A stretch of 38,235 bases of DNA, taken from assembly GCA_020831585.1 (NCBI GenBank), contig JAFIGE010000037.1, positions 1 through 38,235 of the forward strand, written 5' to 3'. Below the pieces are notes generated by a model. That model was not told where the DNA came from, searched no databases, and worked only from the letters and a program-made list of their open reading frames with translations. Of this stretch, positions 9,261-25,396 are shown in pieces (positions within the stretch are counted from its first letter, which is position 1; each line of letters opens with the position of its first letter). This DNA is from Opitutales bacterium (GTDB lineage: Bacteria > Verrucomicrobiota > Verrucomicrobiia > Opitutales > Oceanipulchritudinaceae). The position numbers were made by a program, and so were the translations under genes.

Positions 9261-10274
9261 ATGAACGCGTTAACAACGATCTTCAATCCGGGAATCCTCT
9301 TCTTCCTGCTCGGTTTTGTGGCTGCTCTTCTCCGCTCCAATCTGAACATTCCCGAGTCGGTGGTGAAGTTCCTGACCTTTTACCTGATGGTCTCGATCGG
9401 ATTCAAAGGGGGCGTGGGCCTTTATTACAGCAGCCTGTTTGGAGACGGCCTGCTCATCATCGGCATCGTGCTTCTTATGAGCGCCCTCGTGCCGCTGTAT
9501 GCCTTTGCTTTCTTCCGCCGAAAGTTTGGCACCGCCGACGCCGCCGCCATCGGGGCAACCTACGGATCCAACAGCACGCTTACCTACATCACCGCAGCCG
9601 GCTTCCTGACCTCCATGGGGGTGGCCTTTGAAGGCTATATGACGGTGGCTCTGGTCGTCATGGAAACGCCCGCCATTATCCTCGCAATCATCATGGCCCG
9701 CGCCACCGGTGAAGTCTCCGGGCAAAAAGAGCCGACGCACCGCATCATTGCCGGGGCCCTGACTGACGGAAGTTTGCTCCTCCTCGTGGGTAGCCTGATC
9801 ATCGGCTATTTGCTGAAAAGCCTGGGGGCGGAGGAATCGCCCCTCTCGACCTTTATCAGCGGGGACATGTTCACGGGAATGTTGATCTTCTTCCTCCTCT
9901 ACATGGGGACGGTGGTCGGCCAACGCCTCCGGGAGCTGAATGGGTTTCCCCTTCCGTTGGCGGTCTTTGCGGTCGGTGCGCCCATCCTGAATGCGACTAT
10001 TGCGATCAGTTTGTCGCGGTTGTTTGGTTTCTCCGCCGGGGATGCGCTGCTTCTTACCGTGCTCTGTTCCTCGGCCTCCTATATCGTCGCTCCGGCCATC
10101 TTGCGGGATGCTCTGCCGGAGGCTGATCCGGCCAAGTTTCTCACCATGAGCCTGGGAATCACCTTTCCCCTCAATATCGTCTTCGGTATTCCCGTCTATT
10201 GGTGGATCATCAGCCGCATGAGCGACCCCAGCGTCTCTTTCCTGGGCAGCGCGTGTCTGACCTGCGCGGGGTAA
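9261..10274 (+). CDS. SbtA-like sodium-dependent bicarbonate transporter
   Basis: A 337-residue polytopic membrane protein of the sodium-dependent bicarbonate transporter (SbtA) family. It has about ten hydrophobic spans in two inverted halves. The first half ends with GATYGSNSTLTYITAAGFL, and the second holds the matching VLCSSASYIVAPAILRDALPEADPAKFL. Both align with the serine-rich substrate loops and the closing SxS-APPxLRAGIPxANPS block of cyanobacterial SbtA. It should take up HCO3- with Na+ across the cytoplasmic membrane. No PII-like SbtB gene follows. The adjacent divergent LysR gene is the likely regulator. The ATG at 9261 has no close ribosome site; AAGGAG at 9234-9239 instead serves an ATG at 9250 that opens a four-codon frame ending at this start (ATGA overlap). 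Confidence 0.8.
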   Translation: MNALTTIFNPGILFFLLGFVAALLRSNLNIPESVVKFLTFYLMVSIGFKGGVGLYYSSLFGDGLLIIGIVLLMSALVPLYAFAFFRRKFGTADAAAIGATYGSNSTLTYITAAGFLTSMGVAFEGYMTVALVVMETPAIILAIIMARATGEVSGQKEPTHRIIAGALTDGSLLLLVGSLIIGYLLKSLGAEESPLSTFISGDMFTGMLIFFLLYMGTVVGQRLRELNGFPLPLAVFAVGAPILNATIAISLSRLFGFSAGDALLLTVLCSSASYIVAPAILRDALPEADPAKFLTMSLGITFPLNIVFGIPVYWWIISRMSDPSVSFLGSACLTCAG

Positions 10275-10406: not shown

Positions 10407-12032
10407 ATGAAGAAACGCGCTTCCTTTCATCACACCGCCGTCCTCGCTCTGGCCGCCTGCATTCCGGGCGGGGTCGCGGGGCAGGGATCGCTCCTGCCCC
10501 CCGGCCCGCCCGTCGCGCCGGCGGTTACCCTCCAACACCTGGCTCCGGCTACCCTTCTGCCCGATCCCCACGGGCGGCCCGGACTTGCCGCCGCACCTTT
10601 TTACCTCACTGAACCGGGGCACTACCAACTCGACGCGAACATCTCTCTCGAAGGTGCCACCGCCCTTGTCATCGCTTCCGCTTTTGTGACCCTTGATCTG
10701 GGCGGCCACGTCGTGTCGATCACAGGGTCCGCTCCGGCGGAGACGGCCATCCTTGTTGATTCCGCTCACGCGGAGGGCGGCGTGGTCATCCGCAACGGCA
10801 CAATCCGTGGGCGCTTCGAGCGGGCGGTCTATGTGCGCCCGACGCTCAATGGCACTGCGGCTTCCATGGTCCGCGTGGAGGATGTGCTCCTCCAACCGCG
10901 CAAGACGGAGGTGACGGGTGTTGTCGAACCCTCCCTTCAGGGGGGCATCATCCTGGGCCCGCTGAGCCGGATCGTCCGGTGCCGGCTGGAGGTGGAGGAC
11001 GAGGGCAACGCTTCCTGGCTACCTTACCCCTTTGTCGAGGGCAACCGGTTGGGAGTGCTGGTTGGACGCGGCGGCTTCATCGAGGAAGTCGAGTTGCAGG
11101 GGGCGGCCCTTGCGGCGGGTTCCGGAAGTTATGTCAGGCGTATCGCCATTCACCGCTACAGCGAGACTCCCCGCAGCAACGAAGCGGAATCCGTTCGCCC
11201 GGCCGTCACTCTCGGTCACGGGACCGTCGCGCGCGAACTCTTCATCGACACGGGCACGTCGGTCCTCGACGCGGGTTCGGCTGTCCGCCTCGACGATGTC
11301 TTTGTGAGCGAGCGGCCATCGGGGGACATCCGCATCCTCAGCGCCGCGCTTATCACCCGATTCAATCACCCGGCGGGAGCCTCTGGCCGCCTCCTCTATC
11401 ACGACGCCCTGCGCATCGACCAATCGTATCTCCGCGGAGCCCTCGTTCCCTTTCAAGATGCCCGCTACGCCCACCTCACGGCGAGCCACATCGAAAACGA
11501 TTCCGGCCATTCGTTCACGCTCTCCCTCCCCCGGGGTTCGGTGGTGCACGCCTGCTCCATCACGGGGGGCGAGGTGATCGTTTACGGCCGGGCGGGGTCG
11601 CCCTTATATCCCGCCGCGCACATCCGCATGACCGGCTCATCGGTCTATGGAACGGTCGACACCCTCTCATCCGGTGTGATCACCACCAGCGGTGCTGACT
11701 TGCCTCCGTCCAGCGTGCTGGAGGGCAACCACTTCGAAAACATCCTGCATTTCATGGCGCAGGTGGACGCAGGCACGCTTGTCCGGCGAAATCGTTTTGT
11801 GAACGTCGCTCCGGTCACGGCAGGTACGGCCCTTGTGCCCCAGGGTGGGGGCCTCTTTATTGTCGAAAACGACTTCCTTAACCTCAGCCGCATCCTGCCG
11901 GCGCACCCCGGTGTCCTCGAAAAACTGGAAAACACCGTTTCCGGTCCGCTGGAGACCTCGCCGGTCTGGAACGCCGACCTTTCCCCCTTCGCCAACACCT
12001 ATCACAACATCCTCAACTCCCCCGTCCCCTAA
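10407..12032 (+). CDS. Exported right-handed beta-helix protein A
   Basis: A 541-residue exported protein. Residues 1-27 are a signal peptide. After the cleavage region comes a GSLLPPGPPVAP segment of the kind that opens many Verrucomicrobial and Planctomycetal beta-helix proteins. Then YLTEPGHYQLDANISLEG...VTLDLGGHVVSITG matches the first coils of pectate-lyase-like right-handed beta-helices. Short alternating beta-coil repeats continue to about residue 520 (for example VVIRNGTIRGRFERAVYV). No catalytic signature of a known polysaccharide lyase or hydrolase is recognisable, so enzymatic activity is unproven; a surface or matrix role is equally possible. Start: ATG at 10407 with AAGGA five bases upstream. 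The paralogue follows after 39 bases, and the two probably form an operon with the gene at 13674. Confidence 0.7.
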   Translation: MKKRASFHHTAVLALAACIPGGVAGQGSLLPPGPPVAPAVTLQHLAPATLLPDPHGRPGLAAAPFYLTEPGHYQLDANISLEGATALVIASAFVTLDLGGHVVSITGSAPAETAILVDSAHAEGGVVIRNGTIRGRFERAVYVRPTLNGTAASMVRVEDVLLQPRKTEVTGVVEPSLQGGIILGPLSRIVRCRLEVEDEGNASWLPYPFVEGNRLGVLVGRGGFIEEVELQGAALAAGSGSYVRRIAIHRYSETPRSNEAESVRPAVTLGHGTVARELFIDTGTSVLDAGSAVRLDDVFVSERPSGDIRILSAALITRFNHPAGASGRLLYHDALRIDQSYLRGALVPFQDARYAHLTASHIENDSGHSFTLSLPRGSVVHACSITGGEVIVYGRAGSPLYPAAHIRMTGSSVYGTVDTLSSGVITTSGADLPPSSVLEGNHFENILHFMAQVDAGTLVRRNRFVNVAPVTAGTALVPQGGGLFIVENDFLNLSRILPAHPGVLEKLENTVSGPLETSPVWNADLSPFANTYHNILNSPVP

Positions 12033-12071
12033 GGCACGCCCACGATCGCCCCCGCACGCCCCCCGCATCCC

Positions 12072-13667
12072 ATGAAAACGCCCTCGCTTCCCTTGCTTGC
12101 CGCGCTCGTCCTCACGACGGTTGGCGCGGCTCCGAACCTGAGCGCCCACGGCACGCTGCTCCCGCGTCCTTTCGTTGCCCCGACGGGCCGCAGCCTTGAG
12201 CAAATCGCCCGCCCCCGGGGCCAACCGATCACGCAAACCGCCCAGACCACCTTTCCTATTCAAGTCATCGGCCGCGCCTATCTGGCCTCCAATATCCGCG
12301 CCTACGCCACGGAAGGACCGGCCATCCTCCTCTATGAGGGGGCGGAACTCGATCTCAACGGCTTTGCCATCCTTTCCGAAGAGAGCGACGGCGGAAGCGC
12401 CCACCCGGCCATCGCCATCCTCACCTTTTCGTCCGGCAAACCGCGCACGGTGGTGCGTAACGGCTTCATCGGCGGGATCTGGCGCTATGCCGCGAGGGAG
12501 CCGGAGGCGGTCGGAGAAGTCGGTGAACTGGTTTTTCAAGACATGCTTGTCCGGGTCGCGGGCGGGGGCGTTCGCCACGGCGGTCCCATCCGGCTGATCG
12601 ACTGTCAGATGAAACTGGGGCTCGATCCGGATCTCGCCTCGCTTCCGCTTGCCCACAGCTCCCGCGAAGTGCGGCTGGAACGCACGCAAGTCAAAGGCGG
12701 GCACATCCTTGCCGCCAACGCGGTCATTCTCGACTCGGTCATCGACGGCACCGGTCTCGCGGGATCGCCCGGCAGCTTCCTGCGGACAGGGGAGCAGGCG
12801 GACCACACTCCGGCTTCGCGTATCGAGCGCACAACCATTTCCGGCCAGCAGATTGATGACGGCAGCGGCATTCCCCAATATACCCTCATGCCGGGCGTCC
12901 ATGAAGGAGCCGGTTCCATCCTCGTAACCGACTCCACCTTCGCCTACATCAATGGCAAAGCCATCCGCACAACGGGCGGCCTGGAGGTGGTGCGAACGAC
13001 GATCCACCAGACCGGTGGCCTCGAAGCCTTGCATTTCACCAGCCCCACGGTCCGGGACATGCGCCGCAATCGACTCGACACGGTCGTCGTGCGCGGAGGG
13101 AGCGTCGTGCTGGGGAAGGCCTCGGACGTGCGCGGGTCCAGCTTCGCCGGTGCCTCGCTCAAGGTCGGCGACGACGCCCTCGTCGAGCACAACCTCATTG
13201 CTCCCTACGTGCCCAATACCCCGGTTTCGGAAATCGCCCTCGAAATGGGCGACCATGGCCGGGCCCGCCACAACCACATCATCGACGCCGACGCCGAAGG
13301 CCTCCGCATCGGGGCGCGCGGCCTTGTCGAGCAAAACTCCTTCGGTGCCCTGCGCGGATTCAACCAACGCGCCGCCCTCTACCTTGCGGGCCCGGACACG
13401 GTCGTGCGCGACAACTTTTTCACCGGTGCTCCCGCCACCTCTCCGCCATCCGGGGCCTTCCCCCTTCTCAAAGCGGTTTACGGAAGGGACGAGGCCGAAC
13501 GCCTGCGCTTCACCGGCAACCTCATGGCAAACGCCCAAGGCGACTTTTTCGAACTTCCGGCAGAGAACGTCTTCGGCAACTACCGACTGATTCCCCATGG
13601 CGCCGAAGTGCCCCCCCTGCACGATCCCGCCACGACCAATCTCATCTACGTCCACCCGACTCCCTGA
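12072..13667 (+). CDS. Exported right-handed beta-helix protein B
   Basis: A 531-residue exported protein with the same plan as its upstream neighbour: a signal peptide (residues 1-25), a short GTLLPRPFVAPTGRSLEQIA segment matching GSLLPPGPPVAP-like openings, then beta-helix coils beginning AILLYEGAELDLNGFAI and continuing with repeated RxNxI and (V/I)xxxxI steps to the end. Sequence similarity between the two is low outside the opening and first coils, which points to an old duplication or to separate members of one family. No active-site motif is recognised. Position and spacing (39 bases after protein A, 6 bases before the type 3 repeat protein) indicate co-transcription. Confidence 0.68.
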   Translation: MKTPSLPLLAALVLTTVGAAPNLSAHGTLLPRPFVAPTGRSLEQIARPRGQPITQTAQTTFPIQVIGRAYLASNIRAYATEGPAILLYEGAELDLNGFAILSEESDGGSAHPAIAILTFSSGKPRTVVRNGFIGGIWRYAAREPEAVGEVGELVFQDMLVRVAGGGVRHGGPIRLIDCQMKLGLDPDLASLPLAHSSREVRLERTQVKGGHILAANAVILDSVIDGTGLAGSPGSFLRTGEQADHTPASRIERTTISGQQIDDGSGIPQYTLMPGVHEGAGSILVTDSTFAYINGKAIRTTGGLEVVRTTIHQTGGLEALHFTSPTVRDMRRNRLDTVVVRGGSVVLGKASDVRGSSFAGASLKVGDDALVEHNLIAPYVPNTPVSEIALEMGDHGRARHNHIIDADAEGLRIGARGLVEQNSFGALRGFNQRAALYLAGPDTVVRDNFFTGAPATSPPSGAFPLLKAVYGRDEAERLRFTGNLMANAQGDFFELPAENVFGNYRLIPHGAEVPPLHDPATTNLIYVHPTP

Positions 13668-13673
13668 GGAAGC

Positions 13674-14573
13674 ATGACCCCCACCGGCAACACCGCTTCC
13701 CGTTTCCGCCTGCGCCTCGCCGCCCTTCTCTTCGGCTGCGCTGCGGCCTGCACGGCCACAACGATCGATCTCGACGAAGCCCACGCATGGTCGCCCGCTG
13801 CCGGCTGGCTCGATTGGCGCGGTCATGGCAACCAAGGCGCCGTCATGGGGCGCTATGTTTGCGAAGGCTTCGTCTGGGCCCCCAACATCGGCTGGATTCA
13901 CCTCGGCAACGGGCTGCCTGCCGACGGTATTCACTACGCCAACCACGGCCCCGACACAGGGCTCAACGTCTTTGAGGACTACCGCTTGCGCGGCCTCGCC
14001 TGGAATGGTGCGACCGGCTGGATCCATTTCGAGGAACAGGGCAACCCGCGCATCGATCCGCTCACGGGAAGGCTCTTCGGCTACGCATGGTCCCCCAATC
14101 TCGGCTGGATCAACCTCCAGGGCGGACCCGGCATCCGCCTCCGCACGCGCTACCTGCACCCCGGACGCGACTCCGACAACGACGGCCTGCCCGACGCCTA
14201 CGAACTCCTCCTTACCAACCGCCTCGATGTCCTCCATGGCGACCTCGACAGCGATGGCGACGGCGTTTCCGATCGCGATGAATACCTAGCCGGCACGGAT
14301 CCGCTCGATCCCGCGAGTCACTTCCGCATCCTCCTCCATGCCCGCGAGCCGGAGGAGGGCCTCATCCGCCTCGGATTCACCTCCGTGCCCGACCGCCTGT
14401 ATACCGTCCAACTCTCGACGACTGGCCTCGAGGCGGGCCATTTCCAGCCCCTCAGCCTGCACAGGGCATTCGCAGGCGATCCCGGAGTCGCCACCTTTCG
14501 CGCCCTGGCCGATCCCGGCACCCCGCGCCATTTTATCAAGGTTGAAGCCCGGCTCCCTCTTTCGCCGCCTTGA
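13674..14573 (+). CDS. Exported Trp-Gly repeat and thrombospondin type 3 repeat protein
   Basis: A 299-residue exported protein. Residues 1-28 are a signal peptide. Residues 38-149 hold four repeats of about 12 residues with the pattern (A/V)W-x2-x-x-GW-(I/L): AWSPAAGWLDW, VWAPNIGWIHL, AWNGATGWIHF and AWSPNLGWINL. Residues 166-210 contain two calcium-binding thrombospondin type 3 style repeats, DSDNDGLPDAYE and DSDGDGVSDRDEY, ending in LAGTDPLDP. The last 85 residues (FRILLHAREP to the end) resemble the small beta-sandwich tail common at the C-terminus of secreted Verrucomicrobial proteins. I infer a secreted, calcium-stabilised structural or adhesive role. It is the last gene of the three-gene exported cassette. 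Confidence 0.7.
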   Translation: MTPTGNTASRFRLRLAALLFGCAAACTATTIDLDEAHAWSPAAGWLDWRGHGNQGAVMGRYVCEGFVWAPNIGWIHLGNGLPADGIHYANHGPDTGLNVFEDYRLRGLAWNGATGWIHFEEQGNPRIDPLTGRLFGYAWSPNLGWINLQGGPGIRLRTRYLHPGRDSDNDGLPDAYELLLTNRLDVLHGDLDSDGDGVSDRDEYLAGTDPLDPASHFRILLHAREPEEGLIRLGFTSVPDRLYTVQLSTTGLEAGHFQPLSLHRAFAGDPGVATFRALADPGTPRHFIKVEARLPLSPP

Positions 14574-15081: not shown

Positions 15082-15531
15082 ATGGACGGTCTCTTCGCAC
15101 AGGGTGTTTATATCGGGAACTTCGCGCACAATCTGGATGCGCGGAACCGGGTGACTGTGCCGTCGAACTGGCGTGTGGTGGGGGACGAGGGGAATTTCTA
15201 CTTTGGTTGGCCGGACAAGGCGGGGTGCATTTCGGTGATGCCGCCGCACATGCTTCAGGGGCTGCTGGAAAAAGCGCGGGACCTGAAGCAGCAAAATGTC
15301 GCCACGCAGGCCGCGCTCCGCCGTTTTTTTGGCAAGGGGACGCAGTTTGGCTGCGACAAACAGGGGCGCATTTTGCTGTCCGAGCCACTGCTGAAGCACG
15401 CCGGGATCACCAAACCGGTGGTCATGGTGGGCCTTGGCTTAACCTTTCAAATCTGGAACCCAGAGCGCTACGACGAGGCCGACGCAGCTTTCGATGTGGC
15501 CGACGCCGGTGCCGAACTGGAGTTCTTCTGA
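15082..15531 (+). CDS. mraZ: Division/cell wall cluster transcriptional repressor MraZ
   Basis: A 149-residue protein with two SpoVT/AbrB-type halves. The first half has AHNLDARNRVTVPSNWR (usual form LDxKGRxxxP). The second has CDKQGRILLSEPLLKHAGI followed by VVMVGLGLTFQIWNPERYDEA. MraZ forms ring-shaped oligomers that bind G-rich direct repeats and repress its own operon. It is the first gene of the dcw cluster, and its stop overlaps the proposed rsmH start (TGATG). The ATG at 15082 lacks a clear ribosome site, but the protein aligns from its first residues (FAQGVYIGNF), so the start is probably right. Confidence 0.93.
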   Translation: MDGLFAQGVYIGNFAHNLDARNRVTVPSNWRVVGDEGNFYFGWPDKAGCISVMPPHMLQGLLEKARDLKQQNVATQAALRRFFGKGTQFGCDKQGRILLSEPLLKHAGITKPVVMVGLGLTFQIWNPERYDEADAAFDVADAGAELEFF

Positions 15532-16616
15532 TGGTATGGATGCCTTTCCAAATGCTCGTTGGGTGCTCGTCGCCCGCCCCGGTGGAGCGGGGCGGGCGGC
15601 GGTCGCCGCACCCGGTGGGGAGGTGGCCCGTGCGTGAGGATGCACCCATCGGCGGCGGCCATGTGCCGGTGCTTCTGGATGCCGTGCTGGAGGCGCTGGA
15701 TACCGCGCCGGAGCGTCGCCTGCTCGATGGAACTTTTGGGGGTGGGGGACACACCCGCGCCCTTCTCGACCGGGGGCACCATGTGCTCGCAATTGATTGC
15801 GACCCCGATGCGGAGGCGCGCGCAGCCGCTCTGCAGACGGCGTATGGGGCGCGTTTCCGCTTCCGTGCGGGCAACTTTACGGACCTCGCCGAGCTGGTGG
15901 GGGATGAGCGGTTCGATGGTATTCTCTTCGATTTCGGACTTTCCTCCTTCCACTACGACACGGCGGAACGCGGCTTTTCCTTCCGGCATGACGGTCCCCT
16001 GGACATGCGCCTGGACCCGCGCCGGGGTCGGACGGCGGCGGAGTTTCTCGCCAACGCATCGCACGGGGAATTGGCGCAGGCCATCCGGATCTTTGGGGAG
16101 GAGCCCCAGTGGCGCCGCATTGTTGAGGCCATTTTGGAGACCCGCGAGAGCGTGCCCCTGCGCCGCACCGTTGATCTCACGCGGTTGGTGGAGGGGGTGG
16201 TGAGCCGCCGTCCCGGCCCGCCGCTCAAGATTCACCCGGCCACGCGCACTTTCCAGGGCATCCGTATCGCGGTGAACGAGGAGCTGCAGGTGATTGAGGC
16301 GGTGCTGCCGCAGGCCTTCGCCGCGCTGCGTCCGGGGGGGCGGCTGGCTGCAATCAGTTTTCATTCGCTGGAGGACCGTCTCGTGAAGCGCTTTTTCCGC
16401 CGCATGGCGGGCCAGCCGGAGCACGACCGCGACGCCCGTCCGCAACAGGAGCGCGTGTGCCAGGCGCGCGTCCTCACCCGGCGCCCCATCGAGGCGACGG
16501 ATGCCGAAGTCTTTGCCAATCCACGTTCCCGCTCAGCCAAACTGCGGGTGCTGGAAAAACCATACGCTACCCAGACTGAAAACCATGACCCATCCCACCC
16601 ACCGTCCCGCTTCTAA
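15531..16616 (+). CDS. rsmH: 16S rRNA m4C1402 methyltransferase
   Basis: RsmH (MraW) N4-methylates C1402 of 16S rRNA using S-adenosylmethionine. Visible motifs, in order: HVPVLLDAVL; the SAM-binding LDGTFGGGGHTRALL; the DFGLSSFHYD block (usually DLGVSSxQLD); GFSFRHDGPLDMRLD; FQGIRIAVNEEL; and PGGRLAAISFHSLEDRLVKRFFR. The longest frame from the overlapping ATG at 15531 gives 361 residues, about 40 more than usual. The extra N-terminal residues (MVWMPFQMLVG...) are not conserved-looking, so a later start, for example the GTG at 15630, is possible. The 3' end overlaps the ftsL-like gene by 32 bases. Confidence 0.92.
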   Translation: MVWMPFQMLVGCSSPAPVERGGRRSPHPVGRWPVREDAPIGGGHVPVLLDAVLEALDTAPERRLLDGTFGGGGHTRALLDRGHHVLAIDCDPDAEARAAALQTAYGARFRFRAGNFTDLAELVGDERFDGILFDFGLSSFHYDTAERGFSFRHDGPLDMRLDPRRGRTAAEFLANASHGELAQAIRIFGEEPQWRRIVEAILETRESVPLRRTVDLTRLVEGVVSRRPGPPLKIHPATRTFQGIRIAVNEELQVIEAVLPQAFAALRPGGRLAAISFHSLEDRLVKRFFRRMAGQPEHDRDARPQQERVCQARVLTRRPIEATDAEVFANPRSRSAKLRVLEKPYATQTENHDPSHPPSRF

Positions 16617-17007
16617 TCTTCATCTCATCGTTGCGCTCGTTTTCGCTCTGATCGTCGTGTGTGTGCTCGGCGGTCTGGGCCTTGTGGGCCTGCGCCAGCA
16701 GATTGCCAGCGCGGCCTCGAACACCCAGCGGGTGGAGCGCGAGATCACGCAGGTGGAGCGCCGTCTCAACTACCTCGATACGAAGATTGCCGAGGTCAAC
16801 AACCCGTCCTTCCTCCACCGCCGCGCGCACGAGCTGGGGCTGGGTCTGCAACCTGCTCAGACGGGGCAGTTTGTGCGCCTGACGGTCTCGGGCGAAGCGC
16901 GCGATGTGATGTTCGCCCGGCGCAGCGAGCGCCCGGTGCGCGAGCGCGATCCCTTTGTGCAAACGTTTGATCTGGCGGTCATGGAGCCGCTTCGCCGCCT
17001 TGAATGA
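16585..17007 (+). CDS. ftsL: FtsL-like small bitopic division protein
   Basis: A 140-residue protein with a short cytoplasmic N-terminus, one membrane span (about residues 13-36, LIVALVFALIVVCVLGGLGLV) and a periplasmic coiled coil (about 40-70, QQIASAASNTQRVEREITQVERRLNYLDTKIAEV). It then has an HELGLGLQPAQTGQFVRL segment like the C-terminus of FtsL. Its place between rsmH and ftsI is where ftsL sits in most dcw clusters. FtsL links FtsQ/FtsB to the FtsW-FtsI septal synthase. Assignment rests on topology and position, because FtsL sequences are weakly conserved. Start: ATG at 16585, inside rsmH; the stop overlaps ftsI by ATGA. Confidence 0.75.
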   Translation: MTHPTHRPASNLHLIVALVFALIVVCVLGGLGLVGLRQQIASAASNTQRVEREITQVERRLNYLDTKIAEVNNPSFLHRRAHELGLGLQPAQTGQFVRLTVSGEARDVMFARRSERPVRERDPFVQTFDLAVMEPLRRLE

Positions 17008-18755
17008 AAGCCGCTGTCTTCCAGTCGTGGCGCCTGATTCTTATTGGATTCGCAGGCTGTGCCGCCTTTGGTGCGATCTTCTGGCAACTCGGACAACTCC
17101 ACCTTGTGCGCGGGCCGGCCCTGGCGGCGAGCGCGGAGGATGCGCGGCGTTCGCTCGTGCCCCTGGAGGCGCGCCGCGGCGATATCCGCGATAGCCGGGG
17201 CGTTCTCCTGGCGGGCACGCGCCCGCATGTGGTGGTGGGCATCGATCCGGCGTTTTTCCGCGACGACGACCTGCCCAAGCTCCCCGAGTTGGCGCGCATC
17301 CTCGGACTGGATACGAACGAGGTAAAACGCGCCGCGACAACCCGCTACCGCAGCGAGGGCGGGCGGCCCATTCGCTGGGTGCGCCTGGGGCAGGTGGATG
17401 ACGCCACTTATGATGCCGCTCTCGCTCTGCGTGTGCGCGGTTTCTATGGGACGCGGGGCTTCGAGCGCCACTACCCGGCGGAATCGCTCGCCGCACAGAT
17501 CCTCGGCTTTATCAATCGCGAGGGCGTGGCCGTGATGGGGGTGGAGCAGCAAATGGATTTCTACCTGCGCGGGCAACCGGGCTGGCGTATCTCCGAGAGC
17601 GATGGCCGCCGCCGCGAGCTGGCTGCCTTTCGTGTGCGCGAAGCGCCGCCGGTGGAGGGGTTCAATGTAGTGCTCACGATTGATTCGGTCGTGCAGAGTA
17701 TGGTGGAAGCGGAGATCCGCGCGCTCGCGGAGACGTTTTCCCCCGACGGAATTTCCATCATCGTGACGGAGGCGCGCAGTGGCGCGGTTTTGGCCATGGC
17801 CAACTATCCGACCTTTGATCCGAACCGCTTCTGGGAGTTTCCCTTGGAAAACCAGCGCAACCGCGCCGTTACCGACAGCCTGGAGCCGGGCTCCACATTC
17901 AAGATTGTGCCCGTGGCGGCCGCGCTGGAAGAGCGCCTTATCTCACCGGAGACGCTCATTCATTGTTCCCTCCCGGTGGTGCAATACGCCGGTCGCTCGG
18001 TGCGCCTGCCCTCCGATGTGCGGGAGCTGGGCGAGATTCCGCTGACAACGGTGGTGGCCCGTTCGAGCAACCGCGGGGCGGCTATGATCGGGATGATGCT
18101 GGGTTCGCGCAGGTTGCACGATTACAGTGCGCTTTTCGGTTTTGGTTCGCGGACAAACTGGCCTCTCGGGGGCGAGATTCCCGGCCGACTGCATCCCGTT
18201 GAGCGTTGGGACGGCCTCACCATCAGCCGCCTCCCGGCGGGTTATGCGGTGAGCGCCACGCCCCTGCAGATCCACATGGCCACCGCCACACTGGCCAATG
18301 GCGGCCTGCGCCCGCAGCCCTATCTCCTATCGCGCGTGGTCGACCGCACGGGGGCCAACATCATGCATTTCGAGCCCCGTGCCCCGGTGCGCGTGGTCTC
18401 TGAAGAGACGGCTCGCACGATGGCCGATCTCCTCGCCAAGGTGGTGAGTCCGGAAGGGACGGCGCGCCGTGCCGCACTCCCCGGAATGCGCGTGGCGGGC
18501 AAAACGGGAACATCCCGCAAGATCATCGACGGGCGCTATTCGCGCACGGATCACTTTGCTTCTTTCACCGGGTTCTTCCCGGCGGAGGCACCGGAATTTG
18601 TCATCACGGTCATCGTCGATAATCCGCGTTCCTCGGGCGTGGGTTTTGGCGGGGTCGTGGCCGCACCCGCCTTTCGCAACATCGCCGAGGGGCTCGTCCG
18701 CTATTTCGCGATCGAGGCCCCGCGTCCCGAGCGAGAACTCGCCCGTTTTCCCTAA
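17004..18755 (+). CDS. ftsI: Septal peptidoglycan transpeptidase FtsI (PBP3)
   Basis: A 583-residue class B penicillin-binding protein that cross-links septal peptidoglycan with FtsW. An N-terminal membrane anchor (about residues 10-30) is followed by the pedestal domain opening RRGDIRDSRGVLLA. The transpeptidase domain has all three active-site motifs: SxxK at S297-TFK (EPGSTFKIVP), SSN at 354-356 (ARSSNRGAAMIG) and KTG at 500-502 (VAGKTGTSRK). No PASTA domains follow, so this is FtsI rather than a SpoVD-like form. The ATG overlaps the ftsL stop (ATGA), indicating translational coupling. Confidence 0.95.
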   Translation: MKAAVFQSWRLILIGFAGCAAFGAIFWQLGQLHLVRGPALAASAEDARRSLVPLEARRGDIRDSRGVLLAGTRPHVVVGIDPAFFRDDDLPKLPELARILGLDTNEVKRAATTRYRSEGGRPIRWVRLGQVDDATYDAALALRVRGFYGTRGFERHYPAESLAAQILGFINREGVAVMGVEQQMDFYLRGQPGWRISESDGRRRELAAFRVREAPPVEGFNVVLTIDSVVQSMVEAEIRALAETFSPDGISIIVTEARSGAVLAMANYPTFDPNRFWEFPLENQRNRAVTDSLEPGSTFKIVPVAAALEERLISPETLIHCSLPVVQYAGRSVRLPSDVRELGEIPLTTVVARSSNRGAAMIGMMLGSRRLHDYSALFGFGSRTNWPLGGEIPGRLHPVERWDGLTISRLPAGYAVSATPLQIHMATATLANGGLRPQPYLLSRVVDRTGANIMHFEPRAPVRVVSEETARTMADLLAKVVSPEGTARRAALPGMRVAGKTGTSRKIIDGRYSRTDHFASFTGFFPAEAPEFVITVIVDNPRSSGVGFGGVVAAPAFRNIAEGLVRYFAIEAPRPERELARFP

Positions 18756-18883
18756 CGACACAAATACGCATTTCCTTGAATACACTCAGCCCAATCACCG
18801 AACGCCCCGCGCGGGGCGCCCGCTCTTTCATTGTCGGCGGCAGCTCGCAGCTCTTGCAGCGGGCCGCCCGCCGGCCCGCCTCC

Positions 18884-20365
18884 ATGAACCTTCGCCTCGA
18901 ACAGCTCTTTTCCGGTATTCCCGATGTGCGCGTGGAAGGGGATGCCCGCCGTCCCGTGCACGCGCTGTGCTCGGATAGTCGCCGCGTTACCCCCGGTGCG
19001 GTCTTTTTCGCCTTGCCCGGAGCCCGCACAAACGGCGGGCAATACATCGAGGAAGCGGTTCACCGCGGGGCCATCGCCGTGGTCGCACCGACTCAGGTAT
19101 GGGTGCCGCGTACCGCCACCCTCATCGTGGCTCCGGCGATTCGCCGCACCCTCGCTCTTTGCGCGCGCCGTTTTTATGGAAGCCCGCAGGATAAGCTTCA
19201 ACTGACCGGCGTGGCCGGCACGAGTGGCAAGACCGTCGTCGGGAGCCTGACGCGGCATTTCCTGGAGGCCGGGGAAGCGCCGGTGGGGTTTCTCGGAACG
19301 ATCCATTACGCCCTTGGCGCGCGCACCCTGCCGGCTTACCGCACCACGCCCGAGCCCATCGACATGCACGCCATGCTCGCCCAGATGGTGGAGGGTGGGG
19401 CGAAGGAGGCGATCCTTGAAGTCTCCTCCCATGGCATCGATCAGGAGCGTGTTTTCGGTCTGGATTGGGAATCGATGGTCTTTCTCAACCTCTACGGCGA
19501 GCATCTGGACTACCACGGCTCGCTCGAAAACTACTACGCTGTGGTCAAGCGGGCCTTCGACGGCAGCCTCGGCAAATCGCCCCGCCGGGCAATTGTGAAT
19601 GTCGACGATGTCTGGGGCCGCCGGCTTCTCGACGAACTTCACCCCGACATCGAACGCATCACTTTCGGCACCTCCGAAGAAGCGCGTTTCCGTGCCTCGG
19701 AGATCGAATGCGGCCCGGACGGAACGCGGTTCACCCTCACCGTGGACGGGGAGACCTTCCGGGTATTTTCGCCGCTTCCCGGTCGCTTCAATGTCGACAA
19801 CCTTCTCGCCGCGCTGGCCGCGACGGCGCACCGCGTGCCGACCGCCACTGCCCTGGGGCGCCTCATCGATTTTGACGGTGTGCGCGGGCGCACGGAAAAG
19901 GTCGATGCCGGCCAATCCTTCCACGTCGTGGTGGATTACGCGCATACGCCCGGCTCCTATGCGAAGACGCTGGAAATGCTGCGCTCCCTCACGAAGGGAC
20001 GTGTGCTCACCGTCTTTGGTTGCGGGGGCGACCGCGATGCCCGCCAACGGCCCCTCATCGCCCGCACCGTCGCCGACCTCTCCGATATGGCCTGGGCCAC
20101 GGCGGACAATCCGCGCGGGGAGACCCTCGACGGCATTTTCGCGGATATCCGCAGCGGTCTGCGTGTGAAGGACCTGGTGACCTTTATCGATGACCGTCGC
20201 CAGGCCATCAGCCTTGCGCTCGATGCCGCTGCGCCGGGGGATATCGTCCTCATCGCGGGCAAGGGCCATGAGACTTTTCAGGAGTATGCGGATTCGATTG
20301 TGCCATTCGACGACCGCGCCGTGGCCCGCGAACTCCTCCGCAAAAAGATGGGAGTGGAGACCTGA
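18884..20365 (+). CDS. murE: UDP-MurNAc-tripeptide ligase MurE
   Basis: MurE adds the third stem-peptide residue to UDP-MurNAc-L-Ala-D-Glu in the cytoplasm. The 493-residue form starts at MNLRLEQLFSGIP, a typical MurE opening; the frame stays open upstream to a TTG at 18776 (529 residues), but that segment looks non-conserved. The ATP loop is GVAGTSGKT (residues 109-117), with Ser where Asn is usual. Also visible: YRTTPEP, EVSSHGIDQERV, NLYGEHLDYHGSLENYYAVVKRAF (the lysine normally carbamylated), VVDYAHTPGSY, VFGCGGDRDARQRP and ATADNPRGE. The DNPR motif is the signature for meso-diaminopimelate addition. murF follows after three bases. Confidence 0.93.
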   Translation: MNLRLEQLFSGIPDVRVEGDARRPVHALCSDSRRVTPGAVFFALPGARTNGGQYIEEAVHRGAIAVVAPTQVWVPRTATLIVAPAIRRTLALCARRFYGSPQDKLQLTGVAGTSGKTVVGSLTRHFLEAGEAPVGFLGTIHYALGARTLPAYRTTPEPIDMHAMLAQMVEGGAKEAILEVSSHGIDQERVFGLDWESMVFLNLYGEHLDYHGSLENYYAVVKRAFDGSLGKSPRRAIVNVDDVWGRRLLDELHPDIERITFGTSEEARFRASEIECGPDGTRFTLTVDGETFRVFSPLPGRFNVDNLLAALAATAHRVPTATALGRLIDFDGVRGRTEKVDAGQSFHVVVDYAHTPGSYAKTLEMLRSLTKGRVLTVFGCGGDRDARQRPLIARTVADLSDMAWATADNPRGETLDGIFADIRSGLRVKDLVTFIDDRRQAISLALDAAAPGDIVLIAGKGHETFQEYADSIVPFDDRAVARELLRKKMGVET

Positions 20366-20368
20366 GAG

Positions 20369-21769
20369 ATGTTGCGCTTCCCACCCGAGACGCTTGCCCA
20401 ATGGACCCTTGGAACCTGGCACGGCCTTCCCGCCGAACCGATCCGTGGCTTCCGCCTGGACTCGCGCCGGGTGCAGCCGGGCGATCTCTTCTTTGCCCTG
20501 CGCACGGAGCTCCGCGACGGGCATGATTTTGTTGGCGCGGCCCAGGCCGCCGGAGCCGTCGGTGCGGTGGTCGAGCGCCTTATCCCGGATTGCCCCTTGC
20601 CCCAACTTTTGGTGGAATCCCCGGAGCGGGCTTTGCAGGCGATGGCGCGCGCCCATCGTCTCCGTTTTCCGGGCAAGGTGATCGGTATCACCGGCAGTTG
20701 CGGGAAGACGTCCTGCAAGGAAATGCTCGCCGCCCTTCTCGGGAGGGAGCGCACGCACTTCACCGAGGGCAACCTCAACAATCACCTCGGTCTCCCGCTC
20801 ACCCTTCTCGGTCTCGATCCCGCGCGGCACGATCAGGCTGTCGTGGAGGCGGGCATCAACCACACCGGGGAAATGGATGTGCTCGGCGACATTCTTCAAC
20901 CCGATGCCGCCATCATCACGCACATCGGAGAGGCCCACCTCGCCGGTCTGGGGGGCAATCTCGAAGGCGTCGCCCGCGAAAAGGGCACGCTCCTGCGCCA
21001 TGTGCGCGCGGGCGGATTTGCGGCCTATCCGGGAGCCTGCCTGGCCTACGCGCCCTTCGCCGAGGCCCCCGCGCAGCTCGAAAAAATCTTTCTGACTGGG
21101 ACGGAGTTGCCCGCACCCAAGGCGGATACGCGCTTTGTCTCGACCAACTACAAGACTGATTCCGAGAATCCCGGCGACCCGGGCGGTGATTGCCTTTTGT
21201 GTGTGAGGCAGTCGCCTGCCCGGGTCGAAGAGATCCCGGGTGTGCCCCGCCTGAGCGCGGGGATGCTTTCCAACCTCGTGCTCGCCTGGACGGTGGCCCG
21301 CGCCCTCGGCGTGCCCGCCGACACCCTGCGCGGGCGCATCGCCCAATGGCAGCCGTCCTTCGGTCGCGCCGACTTGAGGATCATCGGTGGGCGCTCGTAT
21401 TTCGTGGACTGCTACAACGCCAACCCCGCCTCCATGCGCGACAGCCTGCGCTTTTTCCAGGAGCGTTTTCCGCAGCCCCCCCGTTGCTACGTGTTGGGCG
21501 GCATGAAGGAACTTGGGGCGGTCGCTCCCGCCGCTCACCGTGAAGCGGCCGCTTTGCTGCAACTGGAGGCCGCCGACACCGCCGTCTTCGTGGGTGAGGA
21601 GGGCGCATGGTATCGCGAGGGGCTTGGGCGAGCGGATTCCGCCGCCGTCGTGGCCGATGCCGATGCCGCCCGTCCGCTTGTCGAAGCGTCCTCCGGCCCC
21701 GTCTTTCTCAAAGGCAGCCGCGCCTACGCCTTGGAAAAACTTCTACCTGCGGAGGTTTACGCATGTTGA
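20369..21769 (+). CDS. murF: UDP-MurNAc-pentapeptide synthetase MurF
   Basis: A 466-residue ligase that adds D-Ala-D-Ala (made by the Ddl encoded downstream) to the UDP-MurNAc tripeptide. Motifs: an N-terminal substrate domain with RLDSRRVQPGDLFFALR; the ATP loop GITGSCGKTSCKEML; FTEGNLNNHLGLPLTLL; VVEAGINHTGEMDVLG; ITHIGEAHLAGLG; and a C-terminal domain with VDCYNANPASMRDSL and VLGGMKELG. The length is normal. Between about residues 250 and 290 there is a less conserved insert rich in charged residues. It starts three bases after murE, and its end overlaps mraY by seven bases. Confidence 0.94.
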   Translation: MLRFPPETLAQWTLGTWHGLPAEPIRGFRLDSRRVQPGDLFFALRTELRDGHDFVGAAQAAGAVGAVVERLIPDCPLPQLLVESPERALQAMARAHRLRFPGKVIGITGSCGKTSCKEMLAALLGRERTHFTEGNLNNHLGLPLTLLGLDPARHDQAVVEAGINHTGEMDVLGDILQPDAAIITHIGEAHLAGLGGNLEGVAREKGTLLRHVRAGGFAAYPGACLAYAPFAEAPAQLEKIFLTGTELPAPKADTRFVSTNYKTDSENPGDPGGDCLLCVRQSPARVEEIPGVPRLSAGMLSNLVLAWTVARALGVPADTLRGRIAQWQPSFGRADLRIIGGRSYFVDCYNANPASMRDSLRFFQERFPQPPRCYVLGGMKELGAVAPAAHREAAALLQLEAADTAVFVGEEGAWYREGLGRADSAAVVADADAARPLVEASSGPVFLKGSRAYALEKLLPAEVYAC

Positions 21770-22863
21770 TCGAACTCGCCGCCTTCGAAGAAATCTTCGG
21801 CCCCTTCCGCCTCTTCCGCTTTCTCTCTTTCCGGTCAGTGGGCGGAGCGGTGACGGCCTTTGTCATCGGTCTGGTGATTGCGCCGTTCATCATCGCGCGC
21901 CTGCGCAAACTCAAAGCGGCGCAGGTTTTCCGCGACCACGCCACCGTGGGCAAACTGGCCGATCTCCACAGCGGCAAAGTGGGCACACCCACGATGGGCG
22001 GCCTCATCATTTTCTTCTCCACCACCGTCAGCGTGCTCCTGTGGACGCGCTGGAACACCTTTATCATGGTCGCCCTGCTCGTGTATGCGGGGCTCACCCT
22101 GATCGGCTTTCTCGACGATTTCCTGAAGATTACCCGGAAGAAGAGCGGGGGCCTTTCCGGGCGCTACAAGCTCCTCGGGCAGCTCATTCTCACCGGCCTT
22201 GCCCTCGCCATCCTTCTCCTCAGCGAGACCACCGCTCCCTTCATCCAGCAGATCTGGATCCCCTTCCACAAAGACCCTATTCTCCTCGCCCTGCCGGTCT
22301 TGCCGCTCTTTGTCTTTTTCTTTCTTGTCCTCGCCGGTTCGAGCAACGCCATCAACCTCACCGACGGCGTCGACGGTCTGGCCATCGGCTGCACCATCAC
22401 GGTGGCGCTCTCCTACGGGCTCATCGCTTACGCTTCCGGTCACGCCGTCTTCGCGAGCCACCTTCTTCTGCCGTTTCTGCCGGGTTCCGGCGAACTCGCC
22501 GTGTTTTGCGCCATTCTCTGCGCGGCCTCGCTGGCCTTTCTCTGGCACAACGCGCACCCGGCCGCCGTCTTTATGGGCGATACCGGCTCGCTCGCTCTGG
22601 GCGGTGTCATCGGAGCCATCGCCTTCATGCTCCTCCAGCCGTTCACGCTCATCATCATTGGCGGGGTCTTCGTCGCCGAGGCGCTCTCCGTTATTCTGCA
22701 GGTGGGGAGCTTCAAGGCCCGCCGCAAACGCATTTTCCGCATGGCTCCGATCCACCACCATTTTGAACTCCTCGGTTGGGCCGAAACCCAGGTGGTCATT
22801 CGCTTCTGGATACTTTCCCTCATTTGCTCGATTGCGGGCCTCGCCACCCTTAAACTCCGATGA
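21763..22863 (+). CDS. mraY: Phospho-MurNAc-pentapeptide transferase MraY
   Basis: A 366-residue polytopic enzyme that transfers phospho-MurNAc-pentapeptide to undecaprenyl phosphate to make lipid I. About ten membrane spans are present. Catalytic blocks are intact: KVGTPTMGGLIIF; FLDDFLKITRKKSGGLSGRYKLLGQ; the NLTDGVDGLAIG loop; HNAHPAAVFMGDTGSLALGG; and the PIHHHFEL triple-His loop near the end. The start at 21763 has GGAGG at good spacing; the frame is open further upstream inside murF, but not with MraY-like sequence. The TGA stop at 22861-22863 overlaps an ATG that opens a 54-codon frame filling the gap to the LysM gene. Confidence 0.95.
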   Translation: MLIELAAFEEIFGPFRLFRFLSFRSVGGAVTAFVIGLVIAPFIIARLRKLKAAQVFRDHATVGKLADLHSGKVGTPTMGGLIIFFSTTVSVLLWTRWNTFIMVALLVYAGLTLIGFLDDFLKITRKKSGGLSGRYKLLGQLILTGLALAILLLSETTAPFIQQIWIPFHKDPILLALPVLPLFVFFFLVLAGSSNAINLTDGVDGLAIGCTITVALSYGLIAYASGHAVFASHLLLPFLPGSGELAVFCAILCAASLAFLWHNAHPAAVFMGDTGSLALGGVIGAIAFMLLQPFTLIIIGGVFVAEALSVILQVGSFKARRKRIFRMAPIHHHFELLGWAETQVVIRFWILSLICSIAGLATLKLR

Positions 22864-23024
22864 AATCCGTTGCCAATATGAACCTCCGGTCCAATCTCGG
22901 AGATGCGGGTTTTAATCCGAACCCGCCGACCCCGAAAGGTGTCTCCTTAGGTATGCCCGGAGGCGCGTTTCCCAACCCGCCCGGTCGGCGTTTTTCTAAC
23001 TGTATCCAACCTTGTTTTCCATGA
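22860..23024 (+). CDS. Possible 54-residue small protein between mraY and the LysM gene
   Basis: An ATG at 22860 overlaps the mraY stop (ATGA), and the frame runs 54 codons to a TGA that overlaps the ATG of the LysM gene (ATGA again). It therefore exactly fills the gap, with both junctions of the coupled type common in this cluster. The product is Pro, Gly and Asn rich (for example AGFNPNPPTPKG and GMPGGAFPNPPG), has one Cys pair near its end, and has no recognisable domain, signal peptide or membrane span. No Shine-Dalgarno is evident. The same bases can form competing hairpins, so the stretch may act as structured RNA instead. This is the usual position of murD, but no MurD-like residues are visible. 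Confidence 0.3.
   Translation: MKSVANMNLRSNLGDAGFNPNPPTPKGVSLGMPGGAFPNPPGRRFSNCIQPCFP
22924..22995 (+). terminator. Long-loop terminator-like structure with competing upstream hairpin
   Basis: CGCCGACC (22924-22931) pairs perfectly with GGTCGGCG (22983-22990), followed at once by TTTTT (22991-22995). A second perfect 7-bp stem, GCGGGTT / AACCCGC (22905-22911 with 22920-22926), overlaps the left arm by three bases, so the two stems cannot both form fully. That is the layout of an attenuator, with terminator and competing stem. The 51-base loop is unusually long and is partly filled by CTCC / GGAG pairing. Confidence 0.35.
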
Positions 23025-24214
23025 AACTCAGTCAAATATTTGGTTTGGTCGTCTTGATCCATTTGGGGATCGTTGCGGCGCTCCTCATCCAACCCGGTTG
23101 CCAGACGCAACGTCCGGCTGACCCCGATCCTTCTATGACGACGCAGGCGGCTCCCACGGCGGGCAACGTCCGCTCGGCAAATGACCGGACCTCGCCGGCC
23201 CGCCCCGTCGATGCGCACCCGGGGGAGGTCGATCCCGCCTTCAATGCCGGTTTTCAGCCGAGCGCGCGCCGATCTGAGCCGATGCGTCCCGTTTCTCCAA
23301 CCACGGCGGCACCGGCGCGAACAGAAGGCCGCACGGATGTGACCGGAGGCGGTGTTTTGCGGCCTCTCACCCCGGTCGATCCCGCCGCGAATGACCGTCC
23401 CTTTAGCTCCGATGCTCCTTCCGCTCCTTCCCAGACCTATACCGTTCAGCGCGGGGACAACCTCACGGTCATCGCGCGCCGCTTCAACGTTGGGTTGAAC
23501 GAACTCCTCGCCGCAAACAACCTGCGCCGGGACTCCACCATTTTTGCCGGTCAGGAGCTCACCATTCCCGCTCCCGCCCGCGAAGCGACTCCCTCTGGAC
23601 CCGCCAGCGTGCCCGCCGATGGGCGGGAGGCGCGCTATACCGTGCAGGCCGGTGACACCCTTACACGCATCGCCAATCGCTTTGGGGTGACCGTCGCCGA
23701 GATCCGCAGCGCCAACGGTTTAACTTCCGATACGATCCGCGTGGGCGATACGCTTCGCATCCCGGGTGTGGCCGGAACAACCGCCGGGCCGGCCGCCTCG
23801 CCCCCGTCGCCCGCCACTGCCCCGCGCGCGACGGCCTCCGGTGAGACTTACACTGTGCAAAGAGGGGACACCCCCATCACGATTGCCCGTCGGTTAGGTG
23901 TTTCGGCCGAGGAACTCATGCGGGTAAACAGCATTTCCGATCCGCGCCGGCTCTTTGTCGGTCAAGAGTTGATCGTGCCCTCGGGGGGGCGTGCGCCCGC
24001 CTCAAGCGCCCCCGCGCGCACCCCGCCACCCGCGCCGCCCGCGCCGCGCACAACCACTCCGCCCGCCGCCGAAACGGTCCCGCTCCGGCCTCAGCCAAGC
24101 CAGCCCGCCCGCATCACACCGCCACCGCCCACGCTCGACGATCTGGATGCGTTGGATGATGATGACCTTCCCTTTGTGGATGTGGAAACCATTCCGCCGC
24201 GGGGCGATGACTGA
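23021..24214 (+). CDS. Triple LysM-domain cell-wall binding protein
   Basis: A 397-residue membrane-anchored or lipoprotein-like protein. An N-terminal hydrophobic span (about 6-24) ends at GCQTQ; Cys27 could be lipidated, but the residues before it (IQPG) are a poor lipobox. A disordered Pro/Ala/Thr region leads to three LysM domains at about 140-183, 206-248 and 277-320. Each begins YTVQxGDT or a close form and ends in an (I/F)xxGQEL or (I/V)GDTLRIP segment; LysM binds GlcNAc in peptidoglycan. A Pro-rich stretch and an acidic tail follow (LDDLDALDDDDLPF). No catalytic domain is present. It sits between mraY and ftsW where murD is usual, so a role in wall binding at the division site is a reasonable inference. 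Confidence 0.85.
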   Translation: MKLSQIFGLVVLIHLGIVAALLIQPGCQTQRPADPDPSMTTQAAPTAGNVRSANDRTSPARPVDAHPGEVDPAFNAGFQPSARRSEPMRPVSPTTAAPARTEGRTDVTGGGVLRPLTPVDPAANDRPFSSDAPSAPSQTYTVQRGDNLTVIARRFNVGLNELLAANNLRRDSTIFAGQELTIPAPAREATPSGPASVPADGREARYTVQAGDTLTRIANRFGVTVAEIRSANGLTSDTIRVGDTLRIPGVAGTTAGPAASPPSPATAPRATASGETYTVQRGDTPITIARRLGVSAEELMRVNSISDPRRLFVGQELIVPSGGRAPASSAPARTPPPAPPAPRTTTPPAAETVPLRPQPSQPARITPPPPTLDDLDALDDDDLPFVDVETIPPRGDD

Positions 24215-24233
24215 AGCCTGAGGGTCGAACCTC

Positions 24234-25394
24234 ATGGACGTCCCGGCCAACACGCTGTTTCCCTCGCCATCCTTGCGCCAGCGCGTGCCGGGCCTCCTCA
24301 CCTTTGTCCTTGTTTTTGCCCTTAGCCTGACCGGGCTCCTCATGCTGTTCAGCGTGGGTCGCTCGCTCGATGAGGGACGGCAGTCGACCTTCGTCGTCAA
24401 ACAGACCATCTGGCTCGGCGTCGGGCTGGCGGCCTTTTTTGTTACTTACCGGCTGAATCTCGAAAAGCTCCGTCCGCTTGTTTGGCTCATGGGTGTCGGC
24501 GGGCTCGTGCTCCTTGTGCTCGTTTTGCTGCCGGGTATCGGTCTGCTCGTGAACGGCGCGCGGCGCTGGATTTCCCTCGGATTCATGAATATGCAGGTGT
24601 CCGATTTTGCGAAGATCGCTTTTCTCTTCGTGCTCGCCCGCTACCTCTCCGACAACCAGCGCCACATGGGGGAGTTTGTTCGCGGATACGTCATTCCGGT
24701 CAGTTTGGTCGCGATACCCTGTGGACTCATTCTTCTCCAGCCGGACTTTGGCACGGCGGCTCTCTTCGGGCTCGTCGGCGGGCTTTTGCTCTTCCTCGGC
24801 GGGGCGCGCCTGCTCTACCTTATCCCGAGTGGTATCGCGGCTCTGAGCCTCTTTGCTGTGGCGATCTACCATGATCCCATACGCTTTCGCCGCGTGATGT
24901 CTTTCATGGATGTGGAAGCTCACCGCAACGATGCGACGTTTCAGCTCTGGCAGGGGCTCATCGCCTTTGGCAGCGGCGGGCTCTCCGGGCGGGGGATCGG
25001 ACAGGGGAGGCAACAAATGGCCTTTCTACCGGAGGCACACACCGACTTCATCTTTCCCATCATCGGCGAGGAACTTGGCCTCATCGCCACCGGAGCCATC
25101 ACCCTGGCCTTTCTCGCTCTTTTCATGGTCGGCATGACGCAACTGCTCCGCGCCCATAATCGCTACCAGTTTATCCTCGGGGCCGGCGCGCTTTTTTTCA
25201 TCATCTTTCAGGCGATCGTGAACATGGGCGTGGCCACCGGTCTCATGCCCACCAAGGGGATGTCGCTTCCGTTCATCAGCTACGGGGGCTCCAATCTCGT
25301 GACCATGTTTATCCTCACCGGCCTCCTTCTCAATTGCTTTGAGGAGTGGAACCGGGAACGGCCGCTGGCGGCGCGGGAAAGGAGAAAGAGTTAG
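24234..25394 (+). CDS. ftsW: Septal peptidoglycan polymerase FtsW
   Basis: A 386-residue SEDS-family glycosyltransferase that polymerises lipid II at the septum with FtsI. Ten membrane spans are expected. Family blocks seen: GARRWISLGFMNMQVSDFAKIAFL; LLQPDFGTAALF; the large periplasmic loop with FQLWQGLIAFGSGGLSGRGIGQGRQQMAFLPEAHTDFIFPIIGEELG; and MGVATGLMPTKGMSLPFISYGGSNL. It stops with TAG (25392-25394), two bases before the murG ATG. The presence of ftsW here with ftsI encoded upstream is standard for the cluster. Confidence 0.94.
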   Translation: MDVPANTLFPSPSLRQRVPGLLTFVLVFALSLTGLLMLFSVGRSLDEGRQSTFVVKQTIWLGVGLAAFFVTYRLNLEKLRPLVWLMGVGGLVLLVLVLLPGIGLLVNGARRWISLGFMNMQVSDFAKIAFLFVLARYLSDNQRHMGEFVRGYVIPVSLVAIPCGLILLQPDFGTAALFGLVGGLLLFLGGARLLYLIPSGIAALSLFAVAIYHDPIRFRRVMSFMDVEAHRNDATFQLWQGLIAFGSGGLSGRGIGQGRQQMAFLPEAHTDFIFPIIGEELGLIATGAITLAFLALFMVGMTQLLRAHNRYQFILGAGALFFIIFQAIVNMGVATGLMPTKGMSLPFISYGGSNLVTMFILTGLLLNCFEEWNRERPLAARERRKS

Positions 25395-25396
25395 CC

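Follow-up and report, generated by a model that had tools for sequence, protein, structure and literature searches.

In dockerin-cohesin systems, tagged passengers can be exchanged on a scaffold that stays constant, and T9SS cargo carries a C-terminal beta-sandwich domain. The GlyGly-CTERM/rhombosortase, PEP-CTERM/exosortase and LPXTG/sortase systems place a short motif on many unrelated exported proteins and show one partner per genome, joint presence or absence of motif and partner, and adjacency where the target is single, as set out by Haft and Varghese (2011; PMC3237569). The locus described here, three adjoining genes (A, B and C) of an Opitutales bacterium, resembles each of these in part. 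Like the CTERM/sortase pairs, its components are co-distributed many-to-one: 31/35 genomes with the N-terminal tag found on A and B hold a C-family gene, and a genome can carry up to 12 tags. However, the CTERM/sortase signals are C-terminal motifs with a TM helix and a basic tail, served by a membrane protease or transpeptidase, whereas the tag here lies at the mature N terminus without these elements and C is a beta-rich exported protein. The scaffold logic is that of dockerin and cohesin, but Pfam scans found neither domain in A, B or C, in the full-length C-family alignment (A3, 49 rows from 57 genes, the other eight left out) or in 10 passengers. Like T9SS cargo, C finishes in a strictly C-terminal domain, here FnIII-like, as do many further proteins of the phylum, but Por_Secre_tail-type Pfam domains were absent from C (E<=1) and from 49 family members (E<=0.01). 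Lcl_C, the domain of the Lcl/DUF1566 adhesins (PMC11162425), occurs in one tagged passenger type (L197) and is absent from A and B. Finally, C has TSP3 repeats in common with the NCBIfam Amuc_1099 pilus-like proteins (26.6 bits, cut-off 50) and MtsC/MtsD cohesion proteins (16.5 bits, cut-off 800), and both matches stop at the TSP3 part.

The window, by which we mean the whole 38,235-nucleotide stretch analysed, carries A (10407..12032, 541 aa, ATG start), B (12072..13667, 531 aa) and C (13674..14573, 299 aa) on the + strand. A and B are exported, tagged, beta-helix-type proteins, and C is an exported W-x4-GW repeat protein, the proposed adaptor or anchor. The ORFs are as originally predicted, three signal-peptide proteins separated by 39 nt (A-B) and 6 nt (B-C). 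A Shine-Dalgarno-like AGGAAG (13667..13672, + strand, in TGAGGAAGCATG), whose 5' end falls within the B stop codon, precedes the ATG of C. Directly upstream of A is a PF05982 gene (9261-10274; Sbt_1, sodium-dependent bicarbonate transporter superfamily; 315 bits in the Pfam scan), which nothing links to the A-B-C module. About 500 nt downstream of C lies a dcw cluster (window 15082-27501), which starts with mraZ at 15082 and contains mraZ, mraW, PBP, Mur ligases and mraY-type, ftsW, murG-type and ddl-type genes; a LysM-repeat ORF (23012-24214) sits between the mraY-type gene and ftsW. On the - strand, an 856-aa open frame (11667-14237) runs antisense to all of B and to portions of A and C, and probably arises from codon use rich in GC.

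Pfam PF18884 and the AlphaFold2 model of C (pLDDT 92.7, pTM 0.84) agree with the predicted composition of the third protein, namely four W-x-x-x-x-GW repeats, calcium-binding repeats and a C-terminal beta domain. In the model, residues 29-158 (13758..14147, + strand) form a WG domain of four beta-hairpin W-x4-GW repeats (WSPAAGW, WAPNIGW, WNGATGW and WSPNLGW). TSP3 calcium-binding-type repeats follow at residues 166-213 (14169..14312, + strand), where two TSP3_bac stretches place C in PF18884 at 41 bits (cut-off 25); these repeats are optional in the C family, since 19/49 members match PF18884 at E<=0.01. Structure comparison assigns residues 214-297 (14313..14564, + strand) to an FnIII-like, sorting-like C-terminal domain, residues 204-299 being the FnIII-like beta-sandwich in the fold comparison (Z up to 7.6). 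The WG head showed a middling resemblance to domain 2 of quinohemoprotein amine dehydrogenase (1jmx_A residues 182-282; Z 6.8, rmsd 2.9, 93 aligned). Foldseek with the entire C model returned nothing at E<=0.001, but this lack of PDB matches does not, in our view, prove the fold new. Sequence searches of the PDB gave nothing useful for the WG profile, for A or for the passenger of L182, a tagged relative discussed below, and neither the WG head nor the tag is covered by any of the Pfam and NCBIfam models scanned. Against genome contigs, C gave 80 kept loci, nearly all through the TSP3/C-terminal portion, with a WG match in L002-L005; across 177 genomes of the order, WG-type relatives of C were found in six (G057, G117, G090, G138, G104 and G085).

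Mature A begins GSLLPPGPPVAPAVTL and mature B begins GTLLPRPFVAPTGRSL, each immediately past the signal peptide, and the two proteins are distant homologues (BLASTP E 6e-4). The common GSLLPPGPPVAP-like opening of the original prediction is real, although the prediction missed that this opening is a conserved mature N-terminal tag shared with unrelated proteins. The beta-helix coils predicted for both are supported through relatives but not by direct matches: the Pfam scan of A returned nothing, Beta_helix (PF13229) included, and B reached a weak 13.9 bits against a PF13229 cut-off of 25.9. We call A and B beta-helix-type proteins because relatives with Pfam Beta_helix (39-95 bits in L002, L004 and L182) are linked to them by phmmer and by profile A2, which covers the opening and first coils. 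A matches tagged beta-helix proteins adjoining C relatives in L004 and L002 (phmmer E 3e-13), and B matches the L002 passenger (phmmer E 2.5e-8). Coil periodicity is weak, the best z being 2.8 at lag 21 for A and 2.3 at lag 5 for B. Many tagged beta-helix proteins (L002, L004, L120, L182, L208, L217 and others) bear an NPWANF-like motif at the extreme C terminus, and A retains SPFANTY close to its own.

The tags of A (QGSLLPPGPPVAPAVTL, 10482..10532, + strand) and B (HGTLLPRPFVAPTGRSL, 12147..12197, + strand) are degenerate. They score 22.4 and 18.4 bits with a tag HMM that has both among its 25 seeds, and the stricter tag profile A4 recovered neither. Their function in the present genome is therefore less certain, and the 18-22 bit scores and the A4 result suggest that the module may have drifted here. 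Direct searches of the 177 order genomes, the genome of origin included, found B in 3 and A in 2; A matched one other genome only (G138), adjoining its C relative, and B matched two weak, short stretches in other genomes. These searches are nearly empty because A and B have diverged, and the family emerges through profiles and through the neighbours of C relatives. A trio peculiar to its own genome was considered and rejected, since the same profiles and neighbours reveal a wide family.

The tag consensus is (Q)GxLTPPGAPxPTMKTLxxI, and the neighbours of C relatives display a longer opening, (Q)GxLTPPGAPxPTMKTLxxIEPRTPI, which neighbours other than beta-helix proteins (L118, L121) carry as well. 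Signal-peptide scoring covered 58/60 tagged ORFs, two lacking the core pattern being left out, and located the tag at the mature N terminus: a hydrophobic stretch precedes it in 57/58 and the -3/-1 rule holds in 52/58, from which the tag likely begins at the signal peptidase site. The proteins behind the tag are diverse. In 10 passengers, Pfam assigned Beta_helix, CarboxypepD_reg, Lcl_C (98.6 bits in the L197 passenger) and FGE-sulfatase domains, some passengers having no assignment. Two types of tag, MKTL-like and MHTL/MYTL-like, were distinguished by eye. In a comparison of 56/57 WG genes (L206 omitted), the 11 partners of MHTL/MYTL-like tags all belong to one WG clade (98/97 support) that contains no MKTL partner, and two genomes (G237 and G513) each hold one matched tag/WG pair per type. 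Inheritance as a unit would account for this match as well as specificity would. A tag variant seems to be repeated within the neighbouring protein at L205:9588-10817 (MEPTGGPTNGTMHTLNDIM), and second tag-like copies follow the tag in neighbours of L196 and L202.

The tag and the C family were found together across the phylum. Among 387 phylum genomes, the WG profile (A1) detected the C family in 40, spanning 27 family labels by hand count, profile A2 matched 43, and the tag-only profile A4 (27 positions) matched 37 at E<=0.01 and 35 at 1e-3. The presence of a C-family gene in 31 of these 35 has a hypergeometric p of 2e-33, phylogeny ignored. A tagged gene lies on the same strand within 120 nt of the C-family gene in 38/57 cases and within 3.5 kb in 44/57, a count from which the fragment G430:C91 is excluded; for the 48 genes of the phylum sample, the corresponding numbers are 32 and 36. 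Counted from the tags, 42/88 have a C-family gene no more than 6 kb away, in all 42 cases on the same strand, where about 0.3 would be expected; the 88 are the 91 A4 rows minus the weakest three (G482, G485 and G458:C214). This count is partly circular, as 24 A4 rows and the 25 HMM seeds are tags beside C-family genes (one a few kb away), and dropping the 24 near tags leaves 18/64 near C-family genes. Where a genome has a WG gene and exactly one tag, the two are adjacent in 11/13 cases (hand count), and G399 holds the most tagged genes, 12, for a single C-family gene. The local genes lead to the same pairing: phmmer with A matched the adjoining gene at E<=1e-4 in 6/10 C-relative loci (L004, L002, L003, L116, L119 and L117, among L002-L005 and L116-L121), and A, B and C as separate queries land on adjoining genes in other genomes, A and C both at G138:C108. 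Three loci (L218, L222 and L224) repeat the A-B-C order, with two tagged genes and a WG gene 13-14 nt later. At three more places (L266, L267 and L276), a tag is adjoined by a WG or C-terminal-domain ORF that is incomplete or has a broken frame.

Because the same gene pairing recurs phylum-wide, A-B-C is more than a chance arrangement. It is the local copy of a pair widespread in Verrucomicrobiota that consists of one or more passengers plus C, so that the predicted three-gene set holds as a recurrent pairing but not as a fixed trio, and the proposed check of co-occurrence in other Verrucomicrobiota came out in its favor. We regard the pairing of a mature N-terminal tag with a WG protein as established. 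The pair is apparently undescribed, as had been suggested: beyond the lack of a Pfam or NCBIfam model, a text search of the open literature found no description of the tag or the WG family, and a match to the motif string was unrelated (HTLV). The pairing has exceptions. Among the 13 C-family genes with no tagged gene within 3.5 kb, six lie at or near contig ends, and for the one in L188 a weak tagged gene lies just beyond that distance; in L206, a neighbour weakly matches the beta-helix portion of A2. Four genomes have tags and no C-family match (G276, G387, G441 and G504), and G482 has a C-family gene without a clear tagged one, the sole tag match there covering 13 positions at E 0.004. Outside the phylum, WG-like repeats were seen, with no tagged neighbour in the surrounding sequence covered, in a Desulfobacteraceae MAG and a Patescibacteria MAG (L232:8920-9432, where the contig end cuts the ORF, and L233:7909-9438); the repeat is therefore older or wider than the pair. 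Two other candidate readings were rejected. A third conserved component was sought in 56 loci, where the largest wholly untagged neighbour cluster reached 5/56, and a pairing general to TSP3 proteins is at odds with 76 decoy loci obtained via the C tail, in which the tag scored at most 8.4 bits and the WG domain was absent.

The C-terminal domain of C, a feature that the original prediction did not recognize as phylum-wide and strictly C-terminal, is present in 49/57 C-family ORFs vs 0/60 tagged ORFs. It also occurs in 55 other ORFs, from loci mostly obtained via the C tail with no selection for position, and in 51/55 its end lies 12 residues or fewer from the stop. Its profile matched 82/240 genomes, and of four matches without WG that were inspected, three finish no more than 12 residues before the stop. 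No Pfam name for the domain came from the scans of C, and in decoy loci (L018, L029, L079 and others) large Verrucomicrobiota proteins end in it. A search for SprA (PF14349) gave no match in the genome, and control genomes were equally without a match. In behavior, this phylum-wide domain resembles an uncharacterised sorting signal.

We consider the chances evenly balanced that A-B-C is a two-component exported module in which C is an adaptor for tagged passengers. C is read as an adaptor because the passengers are without the terminal domain and C would supply one in trans. Passengers, here A and B, would leave by Sec, and cleavage of the signal peptide would bare the proline-rich tag at the mature N terminus, the body behind the tag being exchangeable. 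C would be the constant partner, with a WG-repeat head to take hold of the tags of one or more passengers, a TSP3 linker, and an FnIII-like C-terminal domain by which it would keep these passengers on the outer surface or in the matrix; there, the passengers would act in adhesion or polysaccharide contact. That this amounts to display of a new type, in which a WG-repeat receptor with a sorting domain binds a tag exposed by signal peptidase and displays in trans passengers that have no sorting domain themselves and can be swapped freely behind the tag, is a more tentative proposal about which we have some doubt.

An alternative that we hold to be rather unlikely is that C and the tagged proteins are co-transcribed matrix proteins that do not interact, the tag being read by something other than C, such as a translocon, a protease or an oligomerisation partner. 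It draws on the predicted fold of L182, where C and passenger lie in the same frame and are separated by just one stop, so that with TAG read as Q they could be folded as one chain (AlphaFold2, 32 input rows, three paired). The chain reached pTM 0.55, a level that we estimate two unattached domains would yield; C and most of the beta-helix were confident, the tag had a pLDDT of about 58-66, and no docking between tag and C was predicted. The surface or matrix assembly that had been suggested gains from the wide co-occurrence and not from this lone in-silico docking test, which gives no support to tag-WG binding and, with few paired rows, is only weak evidence against it. On this model, the tag would be a flexible arm lying outside the beta-helix. 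The same alternative would fit the four genomes (G399, G312, G404 and G522) with tagged genes and the detected C-family gene on different contigs, as well as the helical or coiled-coil-like stretch into which, by eye, the tag runs in several non-beta-helix passengers, a stretch likened to the N-terminal helix of trimeric Lcl (PMC11162425). However, a separate tag reader should sometimes recur beside the tag; no third family does, and the gene that tracks the tag is C itself.

The L182 model raises a second alternative, which we find improbable, that the set is polysaccharide-active, with beta-helix passengers as epimerases or lyases and C as their carbohydrate-binding partner. Residues ~351-610 (pLDDT >80) form a right-handed beta-helix, with Foldseek E values reaching 3e-6 (AlgE4), and the matches comprise AlgE4/AlgE6 epimerases, GH87, tailspikes and pectate lyase, the beta-helix dominating. 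However, a shared fold proves no activity, Lcl_C, CarboxypepD_reg and FGE-type proteins are also among the passengers, and the tagged beta-helix proteins range from ~260 to 750 aa with an N-terminal part whose invariant columns are limited to G, L, P and N. The folds predicted for C and L182 do not correspond to a single known enzyme. We give an equally small likelihood to C acting in the periplasm as a chaperone or export factor specific to the tagged proteins instead of as a surface anchor. The tight coupling would suit such a role, C often following the last passenger by 6-16 nt and its Shine-Dalgarno sequence in the window starting within the B stop codon, but C has TSP3 repeats along with a C-terminal domain characteristic of exported end products, and C-like domains also occur inside larger proteins (a 639-aa ORF in L118 and a 1519-aa ORF in L188).

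The surfaces of Verrucomicrobiota are poorly understood, and the tag/partner pair offers a direct handle on them. A tag on proteins of differing folds predicts which unannotated proteins have a common destination, and the pair makes the C-family protein a candidate receptor and brings to light a phylum-wide C-terminal domain.
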